Below are positions 5,888 through 12,492 of a DNA stretch of 64,000 bases, one piece after another (the first letter of the stretch is position 1; every line of letters starts with the position of its first letter). This DNA is from Acetobacter aceti. Lineage in GTDB: Bacteria > Pseudomonadota > Alphaproteobacteria > Acetobacterales > Acetobacteraceae. The notes under the pieces were generated by a model. The model did no database searches. It was not told where the DNA came from and worked only from the letters and a program-made list of their open reading frames with translations. The translations under genes were made by a program, and so were the position numbers. The DNA is taken from contig NZ_CP014692.1 of the NCBI RefSeq assembly GCF_002005445.1, forward strand, positions 2,356,001 through 2,420,000. The letters run 5' to 3'.

Positions 5888-6381
5888 TCAGGTGATATGG
5901 CGCAAGTGGTCAGCTATAGCCTTCGCCATCTGAAACCTGCCGATATTCATGCCATGGTTGTGTATCTGCGTGACGTAAAGCCTCAGTCATCCAGTCATGG
6001 CGCTGCGTCGGTCCGTCAATCGCCTTCCGCTGACACCACCCTGCCCCAGCAGACAAAACGGAGGACGGCTGTTTACATCAGCCTGTAGCGGCTGCCATCT
6101 CCCTGACGGCAGCGGTCGTCAGTCCACTTTCGCCAACATTGCCTGAGCCCGCAGTCTCAGCCCACAGTCTGAGCGCGGACAATGGCCGTAACCTGCTCCA
6201 CGTCATCATGAAGGGCTCGAACCTGATGACGGACAAAGGAAATCAGACGATGCCCGGCTTCTCAGGCGGCAATTACAGCCAGAAAGACCTGAACGGTATT
6301 GCTGCTTTTGTCATGACGCATTTTACGGAAGGGAATCCCTCCGAACATGTCTTCAGCGAGTTTGCAAACAAACCCGGCTAA
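5888..6381 (+). pseudogene. Multihaem cytochrome c subunit, C-terminal remnant
   Basis: Three frames each carry part of one protein. The first gives GDMAQVVSYSLRHLKPADIHAMVVYL, split here as GDMAQVVSYSLRHL and KPADIHAMVVYL. The second gives GGRLFTSACSGCH with a haem motif at about 6084-6098. The third gives GRNLLHVIMKGSNLM and a typical C-terminus ending at 6381. The order matches the last third of three-haem cytochrome c subunits of membrane dehydrogenases common in acetic acid bacteria. Frameshifts lie near 6055 and 6140, and the first two haem domains are absent. It is a decayed gene, not a sequencing oddity at one point. Confidence 0.68.
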
Positions 6382-6466: not shown

Positions 6467-7066
6467 TCAGGCCGTCTCAATTTTCTGCTGTTTACGGTGC
6501 GTGATGTAATCCTGCACCGTTGTAAAACCGCTCTCCCAGGCATTGAGAAGACTTTCCAGATGTTCACGACTGTTTACCAGACCACGGGACAGGATGACGC
6601 CTTCTGAAGAAAGCAGGAAGGCGGCTGGAAGTTTATCCACCTCCAGCACCCGTCCAAGGACAGGATCATTAATAAAACGATCCGTCCTGATCCCGACGTT
6701 CTTTGCAAAGCGCTCCTGAATCCCGATAGCATCATCTCCGGCGAAAACCAGACTGACATGTTCTTTTCGACAGAAATCCTGTGCGATCGGAATGATCTTT
6801 CTCGATACCGGGCACGTTGCAGAGACAAACAGCAGCAGCGTCGTTTCCCGCCTGTCTGACGGACTGAAAGCATCTCCATTCAGCAAACGGAATGGCCCTG
6901 TAGGGCAGGTATCACCCGGCTGGAGACCTTTTGATCCTGTCAGTGCTCCCGCCGGCGCGACCTCGCGGAAAAGCTGCCTGACCTGACGGGTCAGACGCCA
7001 TGTCACAAGAAGCGTAGCCAGCAGAACACCTGTCAGCAGCACATTGACGCAAACCAGCTCTGTCAT
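6467..7066 (-). CDS. MauD-like thioredoxin-fold protein, second copy
   Basis: 199 residues, about the length of MauD. An N-terminal membrane anchor (LLTGVLLATLLVTWRLT) is followed by a redoxin domain. The active site reads ATCPVSRK where the other copy (10119-10724) has CPVC: the second cysteine is a serine here. MauD is thought to assist disulfide formation in the amine dehydrogenase light chain. With one cysteine this copy could act as an isomerase or a binding protein rather than a dithiol oxidase; that is inference. It is the last gene of the amine dehydrogenase operon, 24 bases after the porin gene. Confidence 0.72.
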   Translation of the reverse strand: MTELVCVNVLLTGVLLATLLVTWRLTRQVRQLFREVAPAGALTGSKGLQPGDTCPTGPFRLLNGDAFSPSDRRETTLLLFVSATCPVSRKIIPIAQDFCRKEHVSLVFAGDDAIGIQERFAKNVGIRTDRFINDPVLGRVLEVDKLPAAFLLSSEGVILSRGLVNSREHLESLLNAWESGFTTVQDYITHRKQQKIETA

Positions 7067-7090
7067 CGTTCCTGCTCCAGCCTAAAGACT

Positions 7091-8452
7091 TCAGAATGCC
7101 CAGATTGCGTCACAACTGAACCAGAACATGTTGTTGGTGCCATTGTTCGCATATTTGATGGTCGGATCGTCTGTGGATGAGACGCGATTGAAAGGGCGCG
7201 TCCCGTTCAGCGACTTGTCCAGACGCAGTTCCGGCCGGATGGTCAGGCTACCTTTGGGGAGGTGAAGGAATTGCGGACGATAAGCCACACCCACAGTCAA
7301 CTCACCATAGGTGGTGCCTGCGGCGTAATTATAAGGGTAAGGGCGTCCACGCAACTCGTTGATATAGGACATTGTCGAAGTATTGCTGCCGATAACACCA
7401 CCATTATTGTCGCGAAAAATTTCCCCACGAGCATTGAATGTCAGCCACGGATAGAAATCATGGGCGAAATAGGCTGTCACGCCATACACATCGTCCTGAA
7501 GATAATCATCGTGAAAATACGTGCCGTTGAGAGTAAAGGTGGTCGTCTCGTTGATTTTGTAAGAAGCGATGATGTCACCGATATATTCCATCGCATGATT
7601 GGCGTCACGACCAATGGCGTACACGCTCTGCTGTGGTCCTACATAGGCAAGGGCGGACAGATCCAGCTTTCCGTCCAGAAGGCCATTGGACTGGAAACCA
7701 AAATACCCTTTGGGACGATTGTTGTTTTTCGCACCGCCGAAGGTCGTCGAATTTCCGGCGTTCACGCCGAGGATCCAGTCAAGATGCTCGGTAAGGTGGA
7801 CAGTCGCCGTTACGCCCACCACTTCGAACGGCACGATGAAGTCCGATGAATAATTGTAGCTGTAGAAAGGCCGCTCCAGAGCATCCGTGCCTTCCACGCC
7901 CTGCATGCCGTACATCTGCCCGATCTGAAGATCGAGACCATCCTTGGTGAACCAGGGAAGATGCGCATCAATGTGCGCCTGTGTCGGCGCGAACTGATAC
8001 ATGCCTGTGATCGCCCCGTCGGCCATACCGATAGTCGGGTTGAACCGGGCGTCCGAGCCGTAGAGGACTTCAAGCGTGAATCCGAGACCGTAACCGGCGC
8101 CAATCTCTGAAACCGGATGAGAAAGCGTGCCTGTGATCTGGTTGAGTGTCGCGGTATTGGCGCGATCAACATAGGACTGCGCCCAGTTGCGTCCGGTATG
8201 CGTCCAGGGATTGCCGTTGACGCCTGCCTCGACAACGATATGACCTTCAAGATCGTCAAACCAGCTGTGGCTTCCGGGTGGCTGGAGATTGACATCCACC
8301 TTGGCTGCGTCAGCTTTTTCCGCTGCCGTTTCCTCACTGACCAGAGGACGTCCCGACTGTTCCGGTGTCAATCTCTCCTGCGCAAAAGCCGGCAAGGAAA
8401 CGAGCTGAAGCGCAAAATACGCCCCAACGGAGAGACGGGGACGAGAGATCAT
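7091..8452 (-). CDS. Outer-membrane porin, beta-barrel porin-2 (OmpL-like) type
   Basis: 453 residues with a Sec signal peptide ending near LPAFA-QERL. The mature protein has alternating aromatic and polar strands and ends in IWAF, a C-terminal Phe signature of outer-membrane barrels. Blocks such as GYGLGFTLEVLYGSDA, FIVPFEVVGVTATVHLTEHL and YFGFQSNGLLDGKLDLSALAY (given here in part) fit the putative beta-barrel porin-2 family. It lies between the cytochrome and the second MauD-like gene in the amine dehydrogenase operon, so it may admit amine substrates to the periplasm. Substrate unproven. Confidence 0.7.
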   Translation of the reverse strand: MISRPRLSVGAYFALQLVSLPAFAQERLTPEQSGRPLVSEETAAEKADAAKVDVNLQPPGSHSWFDDLEGHIVVEAGVNGNPWTHTGRNWAQSYVDRANTATLNQITGTLSHPVSEIGAGYGLGFTLEVLYGSDARFNPTIGMADGAITGMYQFAPTQAHIDAHLPWFTKDGLDLQIGQMYGMQGVEGTDALERPFYSYNYSSDFIVPFEVVGVTATVHLTEHLDWILGVNAGNSTTFGGAKNNNRPKGYFGFQSNGLLDGKLDLSALAYVGPQQSVYAIGRDANHAMEYIGDIIASYKINETTTFTLNGTYFHDDYLQDDVYGVTAYFAHDFYPWLTFNARGEIFRDNNGGVIGSNTSTMSYINELRGRPYPYNYAAGTTYGELTVGVAYRPQFLHLPKGSLTIRPELRLDKSLNGTRPFNRVSSTDDPTIKYANNGTNNMFWFSCDAIWAF

Positions 8453-8542
8453 GCACGGAACACTCCTTGTCTGGCATCATGCAAACTGGCCAATGACATC
8501 CCGGTATCCAGAAGATTACAGAGATCAGCGACCGTTTTCTTT

Positions 8543-9046
8543 TTACAGTTTCTTTGCAGTCTTCTCTGCACAGGCTGCCAGAGAACGCCCGAGGGTCTGA
8601 CCGCGCTGCGCCATGAAATCGGGAACGGATAAAGGCTCTTTCCGCCATGCATGAATCTCGGCTGCCGTATAAGGCCGGAACCCTTGCGGCAGACTGGTTC
8701 CAGCCAGCCGGAACATGACAAAATTCATGACATCCGCGAGGGTCTGATCGTCCCGGACGAGAGACATCGACACACCGGGCACACGGATCAGATAGGCCCG
8801 CCCCTCATCTGTGCAGGCGAATCCGCCAACAGCATTGCGTAAAGTCGGCACAAAACTGCTCCCGGATACGCCCTCTATGCCGTGACAACCACCGCAATGA
8901 GACAGATAGGTCACACTGGTGTGGTCAAGCACGGTGGCGTGCGACACGGAATCCGCAGCCTGTGAAACGCCGGACAGAAAGCACACACTTCCCGCAATCA
9001 GAATCAGAGCCGGAACGACCCGCATCAGAAGAGCCGTTCCGGGCAT
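8543..9046 (-). CDS. Monohaem cytochrome c, amine dehydrogenase operon
   Basis: 167 residues from the ATG at 9046, chosen for its GGAAGG-like ribosome site; an upstream ATG at 9091 would overlap the preceding gene and lacks one. A signal peptide ends near GVSQA-ADSVS. The haem site is CGGCH (HCGGCHGIEGVSG). A possible Met ligand lies in GVSMSLVRD. The domain is small and followed by a 45-residue basic tail. It probably carries electrons between the TTQ enzyme and the respiratory chain, together with the cytochrome at 9069-9545. It is not a dihaem MauG. Confidence 0.75.
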   Translation of the reverse strand: MPGTALLMRVVPALILIAGSVCFLSGVSQAADSVSHATVLDHTSVTYLSHCGGCHGIEGVSGSSFVPTLRNAVGGFACTDEGRAYLIRVPGVSMSLVRDDQTLADVMNFVMFRLAGTSLPQGFRPYTAAEIHAWRKEPLSVPDFMAQRGQTLGRSLAACAEKTAKKL

Positions 9047-9068
9047 CGAAGACCGCCTTCCCGCTTTC

Positions 9069-9545
9069 TCAGGGGATCGGGTGCACAGCATTCAACTTGT
9101 TTCGCTCTTCAAGAACCGCTGGAGGCGTCAGCGTGGACGCACGCTCTTTCTTCACATCATCAGCAGTGAAGGTCGGCGCGGGCTTTACGTCACTGAGAGA
9201 TGCAACATAGGTGAGAATAGCTGCAATATTCTCATCGCTCTGGGCACCGAAGGACGGCATGTAACCCATATAGGTGCCGCCACCAGCCTTGATCATACCC
9301 GACAGACCATTGAGCAGTACATGCGTCACATACGCTTTGCCTTCCGGTGTGGACGCAATCGCACCGATACGTCCCTTGAGCGGCGGAAACTGACCGACGA
9401 CGCCTGCTGCGCTGACCTGATGGCAAAGGCTGCAATTACCTGTGTAAAGCTGCTGACCGTCCGCCGCAGCGTGAGCCTTGCCCGAAGCGGTCACCCCGCT
9501 GGCAAGAAGGGCTGCGGCACTCAGGGAAAAGAGAATTTTCTTCAT
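9069..9545 (-). CDS. Monohaem cytochrome c, probable amine dehydrogenase electron acceptor
   Basis: 158 residues from the ATG at 9545 (MKKILFSLSAAALL, a clear signal peptide cleaved near KAHA-AADG). The haem motif is CSLCH near residue 38. Likely Met ligands lie in YMGYMPSFG, as in class I cytochromes. It begins 26 bases after mauA, the position where methylotrophs often encode amicyanin or a cytochrome that takes electrons from the TTQ enzyme. An in-frame extension back into mauA is not credible as part of the protein. Role inferred from context. Confidence 0.78.
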   Translation of the reverse strand: MKKILFSLSAAALLASGVTASGKAHAAADGQQLYTGNCSLCHQVSAAGVVGQFPPLKGRIGAIASTPEGKAYVTHVLLNGLSGMIKAGGGTYMGYMPSFGAQSDENIAAILTYVASLSDVKPAPTFTADDVKKERASTLTPPAVLEERNKLNAVHPIP

Positions 9546-9571
9546 TATCACTACAATCTGCTTCTGATGAC

Positions 9572-10132
9572 TTATGATGCCCTGCCGACCACGGCTGCGG
9601 TCGAGCAATTGTACATCTCCGATGTTCCCGTTCCGAAACACCAGATGATGTCGTTATTGGCCATCGGACGATAGGACGGCTGGTCACCATCCGTATTAAG
9701 GCACGTCACCTCGTTACACGAATCCTGACCACAGCAGTCGCGATAGGCAATCATATAGGAATTGCCGTCCTGCGGGTTGTAACAGCTACCGATCCACGAG
9801 GTGGGAGACGGCGCCGTTCCCGGCGGGCATGTATGGGTGCCGCCACCGCAGGCCGTGCACAGATTGCCGTCGATGGCGCAGTAACGCCAGTAATCGCAGG
9901 CAAGATCGTCTTTCGCCTGCGCTTTCGCAGCGAACGGTGACTGGGGCTTGGGCTTTGCTGTTGCGGCGTCAGCCCGGCTGACCGGCAGCAGCATGAAGGC
10001 CGGAGCCGCCACAACCGCACCACCGACTTTTGTCAGCATATCACGGCGCGAGGTATGGCCAGCGATCCGCCGCAGAACGCTCTCTGTCAGACGATCCAGC
10101 ATCGAACCCTGTTTCTTTTCAGACGGCAGCAT
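9572..10132 (-). CDS. mauA: TTQ amine dehydrogenase light chain (MauA/AauA type)
   Basis: 186 residues. The catalytic small subunit of a periplasmic methylamine- or aralkylamine-type dehydrogenase. A twin-arginine signal (SRRDMLTK) leads to a cleavage near SRADA. The two tryptophans that become tryptophan tryptophylquinone sit in SWIGSCYNP and NDIIWCFG; the catalytic Asp is in IAYRDCCG. Twelve cysteines follow the signal, enough for the six disulfides of the family. SPTSWIGSC resembles aromatic amine dehydrogenase, while the NDIIWCFG end resembles methylamine dehydrogenase, so the substrate class is open. The ATG at 10132 overlaps mauD and has an AGGAG site. Confidence 0.93.
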   Translation of the reverse strand: MLPSEKKQGSMLDRLTESVLRRIAGHTSRRDMLTKVGGAVVAAPAFMLLPVSRADAATAKPKPQSPFAAKAQAKDDLACDYWRYCAIDGNLCTACGGGTHTCPPGTAPSPTSWIGSCYNPQDGNSYMIAYRDCCGQDSCNEVTCLNTDGDQPSYRPMANNDIIWCFGTGTSEMYNCSTAAVVGRAS

Positions 10133-10724
10133 GAGAAATCACTCCTGTCTTCACCCGATCAACCTTCGGAGCCACTGGAACAGTGTCCAGCAACTCTTCG
10201 ATCTGACGGCGTGTATTCACAATATCCTTGGCCCGAATGACGCCGCGCTCATCCAGCAGCACCAAAGCAGGCAGACGGTTAATCTGAAGGACCAGCCCAA
10301 GCTCCACTCCCGTCAGAAGCGGAACATCCTGCATCTCAGGGCGACTGGCCACCATGTCCTGAAGTTCCGGAACCGGTCCGTCCCCGACGAACAAAAACTC
10401 GAATCCTCTGCTGGCAGCCACTTCACGCGCAACGGGAATAACGCGTTTGCAGACCGGACATTCCGGCGCCACGAACAGAAGCATCTGGTAGTGGCCCGGT
10501 TGCAGGGCATCACCGATCATGACCGGCCTGTCTTCCAGTGTGCGCAGAACCAGCCTCGGGACTGTCTGCCCGACATCCAGCCCCGGACGCGCTTCCTGAG
10601 CGCCAATCGGCGCTATCCGTTCATGCAGCACGCCGATCTGACGTGCGAGCGCCAGCAATGTCACAGCAAGAACCAGAACCAGAACTGTCAGAAAGCCCTG
10701 CCAGATAAGAAGAGCGACCATCAT
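10119..10724 (-). CDS. mauD: MauD, thiol-disulfide protein for light-chain maturation
   Basis: 201 residues. An N-terminal membrane segment (LLIWQGFLTVLVLVLAVTLL) is followed by a periplasmic redoxin domain with an intact active site, APECPVCKRVIP near residue 95. In Paracoccus MauD is needed for stable light chain, probably by handling its six disulfides. It overlaps mauE by 4 bases and mauA by 14 bases, so the proteins are likely made together. A paralogue with a changed active site lies at 6467-7066. Confidence 0.88.
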   Translation of the reverse strand: MMVALLIWQGFLTVLVLVLAVTLLALARQIGVLHERIAPIGAQEARPGLDVGQTVPRLVLRTLEDRPVMIGDALQPGHYQMLLFVAPECPVCKRVIPVAREVAASRGFEFLFVGDGPVPELQDMVASRPEMQDVPLLTGVELGLVLQINRLPALVLLDERGVIRAKDIVNTRRQIEELLDTVPVAPKVDRVKTGVISHAAV

Positions 10725-11266
10725 GCCTGCTCTCCTGACGCATCACTGAGGGAGAGATCCGGCAATACGCGCAGCGCCTGCCAGAGCACCCAGAGCGCCA
10801 CGCCACACGCGGCACCCTCGATCCGGATGCCAACCGAAGAAACCTCCCCTCCCACGACAGGCAGCAAGGCAGGCACACCACACGCCAGCGTACGGAAAAC
10901 CAGCGACCAGGAAAGCGCCTCGCCTTTCTGTCCGGGTGTGCAGCCACAGGACAGGTCAGTGCGGCCCCGCATGACGTTGATACCCATCGCCAGAGCGAAG
11001 GTCACCATCAGACCAGCGGCGGCAACACCTCCGACACCCTGCCCGATACCGGACAGCAGCATCAGACCGACAAGCACCTCCACCGCGCCAAGCCCCCACG
11101 CCGCAGTCTCAAGAAACGATGCGGGAAGAAGCCGGTAGGACGAAAGCGTCCCGAGAAAGAGGTCATGTTCCCGTAGCTTGGAAACTCCAGCCACAAGAAA
11201 CATGATCCCCACACCTCCGGCGCAGAGGGCTGAAAGACCACCCATCATGAGAGAGGCGGCATTCAT
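10721..11266 (-). CDS. mauE: MauE, membrane protein for amine dehydrogenase maturation
   Basis: 181 residues with about four to five transmembrane helices: near 5-28, 45-70, 75-95, 115-140 and 145-165. The DoxX/MauE-type signature is seen in FLVAGVSKLREHD and in SCGCTPGQKGEALSW near residue 105. MauE is proposed to pass redox equivalents with MauD during disulfide formation in the light chain. Start and stop both overlap the neighbours by 4 bases. Confidence 0.85.
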   Translation of the reverse strand: MNAASLMMGGLSALCAGGVGIMFLVAGVSKLREHDLFLGTLSSYRLLPASFLETAAWGLGAVEVLVGLMLLSGIGQGVGGVAAAGLMVTFALAMGINVMRGRTDLSCGCTPGQKGEALSWSLVFRTLACGVPALLPVVGGEVSSVGIRIEGAACGVALWVLWQALRVLPDLSLSDASGEQA

Positions 11267-12492
11267 CCTTCACCGGGCGCAACCGTGAAGATCAGCGAAC
11301 TGCCGAGCGCCTTCATCTTGTGCGCCTGTTTGCCGGTTTTCGCATCGAGGATATAAAAATCACTGATATCTTCATTCGTTGTGAACATCAGAGGATGTTC
11401 ATCCTGCGTCACACCGACCATAGGGCTGGGAGTCGGCAGAGCCATACGACGGATGCGCTTATGCGTAGCCGTATCGTAAACCCAGACTTCCGAACCGGCC
11501 TCCTTGTGACTCCAGAACGGCCCCTTGTGCATCAGCACGTACAGTTCATGACTGCTTTTATGCAGAGCGGACATCTGCCAGCCACCGGGACGCCACGTCA
11601 CCTCGAAAGGCTTCGACGAGTCTGGCGCCACCTTCATTCCGGCGCCTTCCTGCAGAGACCAGGGCTTGCTGACGACAGAATCAGCACCAAGCCCGGTTTC
11701 GTAAACCTTGCCGGTATAGCTGATGAACCACGCCTTGCCGTCCTTGGCCGAGGAAGGACTCTGCTCAAAGATGCCGTCGTGATCAGGCTCGAAGAACGCC
11801 GCGCTGTGCGTCATGGACGGCTTGCCATCAGCGCCGATGCTGACATTGGCCAGCGTGCCGTCAGCGCAGAGCGAGGAGAAACCGCTGTTACCCCAAGGGT
11901 AAATCAACGCACATCCCGGCACATCAACCGTCTGCGTGATCTTGTGGGATGCCGTATCCACCACTTCGACCGCGCTGCCGGGGCTCATCTGGTAAACATA
12001 GACAAGAGAGCCGTCGGCGCTGATGGCGAGGTTATTGCGCTTGGGTGTGACCAGCGCACGGGACGGAAGCTTTTCGTCGGCGACGATCTTCAGTGTGCTG
12101 CTTTCATATTCAGCCAGCAGATCATTGCGCTCACCGCGATTGCCGCGTTCCCACGTCGTTTCACCAACAAAGAAATGGCTGGCGTCAGGCGACAGAACGA
12201 CATTCGGATTGTATGCGGCCTGCACCATCCCCAGCAGACGCCCCTTGTCGGCATCCACCACGTAGGCACGACCATCCTTGCCATGCTGATACACGGCGTC
12301 CACGACCAGAATCGTATGAGGCGACCATGGCGCCAGCGTTACAATATCGCTTTGTTCCGTCTGAGGAATAGGTTCATCCGCCCGCGCCGAGGCTGTTGCT
12401 GCAATAAGAACAACACCGCCCAGTAAAGAACGGAGAAAAGCAGCGCGACTACTCTTCTTATTAGGCAAATGCGGGAACGTCATGAGACTCAT
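11263..12492 (-). CDS. mauB: TTQ amine dehydrogenase heavy chain (MauB/AauB type)
   Basis: 409 residues. The large beta-propeller subunit that forms the substrate channel over the TTQ light chain in the periplasm. A Sec-type signal peptide ends near ASARA-DEPIP. Propeller repeats are visible: VVDADKGRLLGMV, AISADGSLVYVY, GKAWFISYTGKVYE, LYVLMHKGPFWSHKEAG and SEVWVYDTATHKRI. The length fits MauB. It is the first gene of an eight-gene minus-strand operon. Methylamine versus aromatic amine specificity cannot be read from the heavy chain here, so the mau name is provisional and aau is equally possible. Confidence 0.9.
   Translation of the reverse strand: MSLMTFPHLPNKKSSRAAFLRSLLGGVVLIAATASARADEPIPQTEQSDIVTLAPWSPHTILVVDAVYQHGKDGRAYVVDADKGRLLGMVQAAYNPNVVLSPDASHFFVGETTWERGNRGERNDLLAEYESSTLKIVADEKLPSRALVTPKRNNLAISADGSLVYVYQMSPGSAVEVVDTASHKITQTVDVPGCALIYPWGNSGFSSLCADGTLANVSIGADGKPSMTHSAAFFEPDHDGIFEQSPSSAKDGKAWFISYTGKVYETGLGADSVVSKPWSLQEGAGMKVAPDSSKPFEVTWRPGGWQMSALHKSSHELYVLMHKGPFWSHKEAGSEVWVYDTATHKRIRRMALPTPSPMVGVTQDEHPLMFTTNEDISDFYILDAKTGKQAHKMKALGSSLIFTVAPGEG

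Follow-up and report, generated by a model that had tools for sequence, protein, structure and literature searches.

We examined a 64,000-nucleotide stretch of Acetobacter aceti DNA (assembly GCF_002005445.1, contig NZ_CP014692.1, positions 2,356,001 to 2,420,000; hereafter the window), which carries an operon for a predicted amine dehydrogenase of the tryptophan tryptophylquinone (TTQ) type. Read along the minus strand from 12492 to 6467, its genes are mauB, mauE, mauD and mauA, two cytochrome c genes that we call cyt-I and cyt-II, a gene for a BBP2-type porin and a second mauD-like gene (Table 1). Start/stop overlaps link the B, E, D and A genes. The initial annotation had placed both structural genes and the factors MauD and MauE here, with one haem site per cytochrome, and profile searches (PF06433, PF02975, PF07291 and TIGR02661) and a single CxxCH in each cytochrome bore this out; the interval also holds the porin, which had gone unnamed, and the second MauD-like protein. 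The TTQ tryptophans of the small subunit, W113 and W164 in open reading frame (ORF) numbering, are invariant in its aligned relatives (22/22), as is the twin-arginine pair R29/R30 (22/22). Because PF06433 and PF02975 subunits are encoded in one operon and both TTQ tryptophans are conserved, we regard this, on sequence grounds, as a genuine operon of the methylamine dehydrogenase (MADH)/aromatic amine dehydrogenase (AADH) superfamily.

Table 1. Genes of the TTQ amine dehydrogenase operon in the window, in order of transcription.
Feature	Position	Strand	Evidence
mauB/aauB-like large subunit of TTQ amine dehydrogenase	11263..12492	-	PF06433, E 2e-57
mauE-like membrane protein	10721..11266	-	PF07291, E 5e-25
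mauD-like thioredoxin-fold protein	10119..10724	-	TIGR02661, 133 bits, E 7e-39, under the cut-off of 188.6
mauA/aauA-like small subunit, twin-arginine leader	9572..10132	-	PF02975, E 2e-49
cyt-I, one-haem cytochrome c	9069..9545	-	PF00034, E 1e-11
cyt-II, one-haem c552-like cytochrome, axial-Met loop deleted	8543..9046	-	Alignment, c552 profile match
BBP2-type outer-membrane porin	7091..8452	-	PF07642, E 1e-40
Second MauD-like protein	6467..7066	-	TIGR02661, 106 bits, cut-off 188.6

The operon lacks mauF and mauG, as had been claimed: no match to PF03150, the CCP_MauG family, was found among the nine ORFs of the operon region scanned with Pfam, and MauF and MauG profiles returned nothing over the first 24 kb of the window. 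MauG is the di-haem TTQ synthase, one haem of which has His/Tyr ligation, and its route to TTQ is, to our knowledge, the only one that has been worked out in detail.

TTQ loci were gathered from three overlapping genome draws (10/200, 12/385 and 12/398 genomes over the cut-off), 80 named contigs and 16 plasmid regions; those 80 contigs supplied the top-ranking 80 of at least 595 confirmed matches and lean toward the window's relatives. A later draw from another class (10/303 genomes, 8 of them new) was made after the pattern described here had been seen. Identical small-subunit cores were counted once (123/138 kept in a first table, 131/148 in the final one), and two genomes were left out of the TTQ genome list, G122 (broken frame, under the cut-off) and G817 (a match of 23 positions that exceeded the cut-off only when its neighbours were included). 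We located cyt-II by six-frame profile searches, ORF calling having favoured shadow ORFs at, for example, G208, G341, G372 and G467.

Among the first 42 loci, cyt-II lay just downstream of mauA in 40, the exceptions being L082, a classical operon that encodes MauF and MauG, and L077, a bare B-A pair. Across 123 distinct loci, 113 had cyt-II, 6 had MauG and MauF, none had both and 4 had neither (Fisher p 5e-8, an overstatement given that the loci share ancestry and MauG had a single origin). The later draw, used as a test, gave 10 loci: 7 with cyt-II only, 1 with MauF, MauG and MauJ only, and 2 with neither, both of them bare B-A pairs in G1050. In the final table, which comprises 131 distinct loci, cyt-II is present in 118 (75 without cyt-I, 43 with it), MauF and MauG in 7, both in 0 and neither in 6. 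The mauFG-less TTQ operon is thus the rule and the MauG operon (7/131) the exception, the reverse of how the window operon had been presented, and the one-haem cytochromes that had been set aside include a constant companion of these enzymes. Four of the six loci with neither factor are bare B-A pairs (L077, L184, L251, L257), one stops at a contig end (L190), and one is a remote Thermomicrobium homologue (L212). The bare pairs are without mauE, mauD or any cytochrome; two genomes that carry one, G430 and G1050, have a B-E-D-A-cyt-II locus (L078, L252) elsewhere.

Searches that started from cyt-II gave the same picture. With at most 19 candidates scored per genome, the cyt-II profile had strong matches (at least 140 bits) in 10/10 TTQ genomes and 1/190 others among 200 genomes of the family; the lone TTQ-negative match came from a 66%-complete bin, with cyt-II at base 210 of its contig, at the contig end. 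Weak matches (44-50 bits) occurred in two other genomes and at a further place in G123. Of the 31 plasmid records with mauA, 16 were examined as sequence regions (7/15 classical, 9/16 others) and the rest were judged from tblastn tables. A Novosphingobium cyt-II matched 16 of 72,556 plasmid records, namely 15 of the 16 non-classical mauA records, all except that of Thermomicrobium, and one weak Thermus record. A cyt-II query from the AADH branch matched 49: the same 15 (14 of them top-ranked) and 34 lower-scoring records, 23 of them Thermus. Neither the first query (0/15) nor the second (0/15) matched a classical mau plasmid record. In NC_022049.1 from Paracoccus aminophilus, a record in which mauA had no match, positions 80907-81131 match part of cyt-II (query residues 71-147, 48% identity) and may be what is left of a former TTQ operon.

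An unlinked MauG-like protein, or else some other route, had been suggested as the source of TTQ in this organism. Searching the whole genome, we found no match to a Paracoccus MauF query and two PF03150 proteins, both unlinked to the operon. One (C1:1526709) is a tri-haem protein that also contains PF14376; where MauG has its axial tyrosine, which we take to be Tyr294, this protein has Met. The other (C1:1615009) is di-haem and has Tyr at that column. That the latter makes TTQ in this strain, as MauG does, would fit its two haem sites and its tyrosine, and a report on Methylacidiphilum infernorum likewise describes a MauG homologue away from a mauBEDA-cytochrome operon (PMC2474590). We nevertheless consider this quite improbable: the gene adjoins a PF04185 phosphoesterase, a genome of the same genus that carries the operon (G169) has only a Met-type CCP_MauG protein, as do G329 and G704, 13/31 TTQ genomes are without any Tyr-type CCP_MauG protein, and PF03150 proteins also occur in 18/40 TTQ-negative family genomes.

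Whatever holds for this strain, for which it stays a rival, an unlinked MauG cannot account for TTQ formation in general, because there are TTQ genomes without a PF03150 protein. Such proteins are present in 21/31 TTQ-positive genomes; all ten genomes without one (10/31) have cyt-II, and the single-contig genomes G208, G627 and G745 are among them. In the later set 1/8 is without a CCP_MauG protein, for a total of 11/39, and the evidence leans to the other route. The MauF query had no match in 30/31 TTQ genomes; its sole match lies in the classical operon of G512, a genome in which a classical and a cyt-II-type operon coexist, each equipped with the corresponding factor. G926 and G759 each combine a cyt-II-type operon with an unlinked MauG-like protein, which shares 60% and 53% identity, respectively, with Paracoccus MauG. 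Neither of these two proteins has neighbours with an evident connection to TTQ: the first adjoins a tRNA-synthetase gene (L235, 6219-7370), and the second stands beside imelysin, DHOR and ferrochelatase genes (L236, 6528-7661). As a test for MauG, the NCBIfam model TIGR03791 was uninformative (Paracoccus MauG 97, the tri-haem CCP_MauG protein 145, cut-off 444).

The cyt-II protein has the sequence and fold features of a class I, c552-like cytochrome c and is without the axial methionine in its loop. Its resemblance to Thermus thermophilus cytochrome c552 comes from a profile match, which skips the Met loop, and from a second-look alignment of Foldseek's own candidates; the Foldseek search with cyt-II gave no match at E <= 0.001, fold search alone being weak here. 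The start codon of the window cyt-II is uncertain: the length of P0010 puts it at 9046, and alignments used 9025. The axial-Met loop is missing in 112/113 cyt-II sequences (a loop of 21-22 residues in those 112), the exceptional row being the cyt-I half of a cyt-I::cyt-II fusion, and no Met, His, Lys or Tyr after the CxxCH is invariant among the 113. Since the axial-methionine loop is lost, the haem of cyt-II is predicted to be open to H2O2 or O2. The protein does not belong to the MauG family: it has one CxxCH and no CCP_MauG domain, and PF03150 was not among the families matched by 39 scanned cyt-II sequences. Fusions of cyt-I to cyt-II occur in Ferruginivarius sediminum (L182, 8387-9427) and in a metagenomic protein (P0001); each would be a two-haem protein in which a closed haem is paired with an apparently open one, an arrangement that recalls MauG.

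Could cyt-II, with cyt-I where present, instead be the dehydrogenase's electron acceptor in amicyanin's place, with TTQ made by another factor? This is the main rival, though in our judgement an unlikely one. In classical operons mauA is followed by the genes for both MauG and amicyanin, and the position directly after mauA, amicyanin's own there, is held by cyt-II or cyt-I in the operons considered here; cyt-II is moreover a small periplasmic c-type cytochrome of c552 fold. However, the conserved Met ligand of electron-transfer cytochromes has gone with the loop in cyt-II. It is cyt-I that keeps an axial-type methionine (Met96, invariant in 13/13 aligned), which makes it a candidate electron acceptor and a better candidate for an electron carrier than cyt-II, yet cyt-I is facultative (43/131) and cyt-II constant (118/131). 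Moreover, 4 of the 7 MauG loci have amicyanin and 3 do not (L082, L200 and L256, by profile search). Because these three are still without cyt-II, the presence of cyt-II tracks the absence of MauG and not that of amicyanin. At L256 a different cytochrome, weakly similar to cyt-I, lies 2.5 kb downstream, and at L200 a small c-type cytochrome is encoded upstream. Methylophilaceae mau clusters are likewise given without mauC, as mauFBEDAGLMNO, in a published account (PMC4109929).

We placed 121 small subunits in a tree built from only 107 columns, in which many forks are weak and the midpoint root serves for display only. The 6 MauG loci in it group as a single clade (100/99), nested in a clade of 13 rows (99/96) whose other members are 5 cyt-II loci and 2 bare loci. 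The Alcaligenes faecalis AADH falls in a separate clade of cyt-II loci, most of them with cyt-I (97/86), and the window small subunit groups among Acetobacteraceae, outside that AADH clade. From this arrangement we infer that MauF and MauG displaced cyt-II once, on the branch to the classical mau operons, with the reservation that the rooting is for display.

We propose that the operon would encode a TTQ amine dehydrogenase that works in the periplasm and belongs to the mauFG-less type. By analogy with the known mau system, MauE and MauD would serve maturation of the small subunit, folding and oxidising it after its export through the twin-arginine pathway. With a haem predicted to be open to H2O2 or O2, cyt-II would perform the TTQ-forming oxidation that is MauG's job in amicyanin-type methylamine dehydrogenases, possibly assisted by Met-ligated cyt-I where that is present, until MauF and MauG took its place on the branch to classical mau operons. 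We favour cyt-II as the MauG substitute because it is found at 118/131 loci and never with MauG, because its Met loop is deleted and because MauG is confined to a single clade. That cyt-II, an apparently open-site cytochrome, does MauG's job in the mauFG-less TTQ operon and was displaced once by MauF and MauG is, in our estimate, an even call. The wider proposition, that the common TTQ route uses a one-haem c552-like synthase whose loop was deleted to open its haem and that MauG is a later replacement in one methylamine-dehydrogenase clade, is offered more tentatively, a little short of even.

Several observations weigh against this assignment. All of its support is comparative, and we know of no precedent for a one-haem protein carrying out the six-electron MauG reaction. 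This genome does encode an unlinked di-haem protein with a MauG-type tyrosine (C1:1615009). The window cyt-II has a methionine, Met87, two residues past its PGV motif that might ligate the haem (the column is M in 25/113 and H in 21/113). The swap is a single evolutionary event, and MauF, MauJ, NapG/NapH-type genes and often amicyanin arrived together with MauG; the swap alone therefore cannot assign a function to cyt-II. Finally, at five loci, two of which are named Gluconacetobacter, cyt-I and cyt-II are retained with no mauE or mauD linked to them. Because of these same five, the idea of cyt-II as a mere fellow traveller of the maturation genes mauE/mauD was not borne out. At L254, moreover, A and cyt-II stand with no B, E or D recognised next to them.

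A further alternative dispenses with a haem synthase: TTQ might form by self-processing aided by MauD and MauE, or through an unlinked flavin enzyme like the makers of cysteine tryptophylquinone (CTQ). According to one source, the first hydroxyl in MADH is present before MauG acts, and the related cofactor CTQ is made by flavoproteins (PMC7876137). We judge this improbable, as it leaves a near-universal cyt-II that is exclusive with MauG unexplained. Furthermore, the same source has the flavoprotein QhpG acting on its substrate in the cytoplasm (PMC7876137), whereas the small subunits considered here have a twin-arginine leader.

Other features of the locus complete its description. The porin, a possible uptake channel, and the second MauD-like gene (6467-8452) close the operon; the same pair occurs in G169, from the same genus, where the porin homologue has the same position, and second MauD-like genes are also found near other TTQ operons. 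Just beyond the operon, on the plus strand (window 5979-6381), is a short cytochrome c-like stretch with a weak cytochrome-profile match (E about 4e-4), perhaps the remnant of a cytochrome gene. Among the matches listed, the closest named relative of the small subunit is from Acetobacter sp. UBA5411 (97%), in a search that may omit the genome of the window itself; for cyt-II, a protein of Acetobacter aceti shares 91% identity. In public records the name 'cystathionine beta-lyase' is attached to many Acetobacter cyt-II proteins, evidently a wrong annotation of a CxxCH cytochrome that has spread. Farther afield, the Thermomicrobium roseum plasmid locus (L212, 2000-10700) combines MauE- and MauD-like genes with several distant relatives of MauA (41-50 bits), and our search found no cyt-II or MauG there; the locus is a possible TTQ-like system outside Pseudomonadota.

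If a one-haem cytochrome makes TTQ in most operons, the two-haem chemistry of MauG would be one solution and not an obligatory one, the mauG-less cluster for aromatic amine dehydrogenase would no longer leave a gap, and a small protein would become a tool for installing tryptophylquinone cofactors. Even if this is wrong, cyt-II is an uncharacterised TTQ-associated cytochrome family that needs explanation. By titles and abstract openings, with most subscription journals not covered, we found no description of a MauG substitute in TTQ operons, of the exclusion between cyt-II and MauG or of the cyt-II loop deletion.

TTQ enzymes without a linked mauG are already known. The aau cluster of A. faecalis, in work attributed to Chistoserdov from 2001, is said to run B-E-D-A, with no mauF or mauG and with a one-haem cytochrome gene downstream. 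The window operon agrees with this description in all these respects and additionally has cyt-I, the porin and the second MauD. In contrast, its small subunit lies outside the AADH clade (a separate clade, 97/86) and matches MADH chains better than AADH (143 versus 128 bits). M. infernorum is the second case: a published account gives a five-gene mauBEDA-moxG operon, places a MauG homologue at another site in that genome and states that growth on methylamine was not seen (PMC2474590). That operon likewise has a cytochrome and no linked mauF/mauG, and it belongs to a different phylum from the window organism.

The mau operons of Paracoccus and Methylobacterium have the B-E-D-A core and the TTQ tryptophans in common with the window operon. 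They differ in having MauF, MauJ, MauG and mostly amicyanin, and no cyt-II is present in 7/7 distinct MauG loci. Measured against the amicyanin-type mau system, in whose operon MauF and MauG reside, the window operon falls short of the NCBIfam cut-offs for the large subunit (TIGR02658, 199 bits, under the cut-off of 454) and MauD, whereas its small subunit passes TIGR02659 (198.0 bits, cut-off 196.85). Compared with T. thermophilus cytochrome c552, which retains the loop with the axial Met, cyt-II is without that loop. With MauG it would have in common the proposed role, a periplasmic c-type haem and, by inference for cyt-II, an open haem site; MauG has two haems and a CCP_MauG domain, whereas cyt-II has one haem and no such domain.

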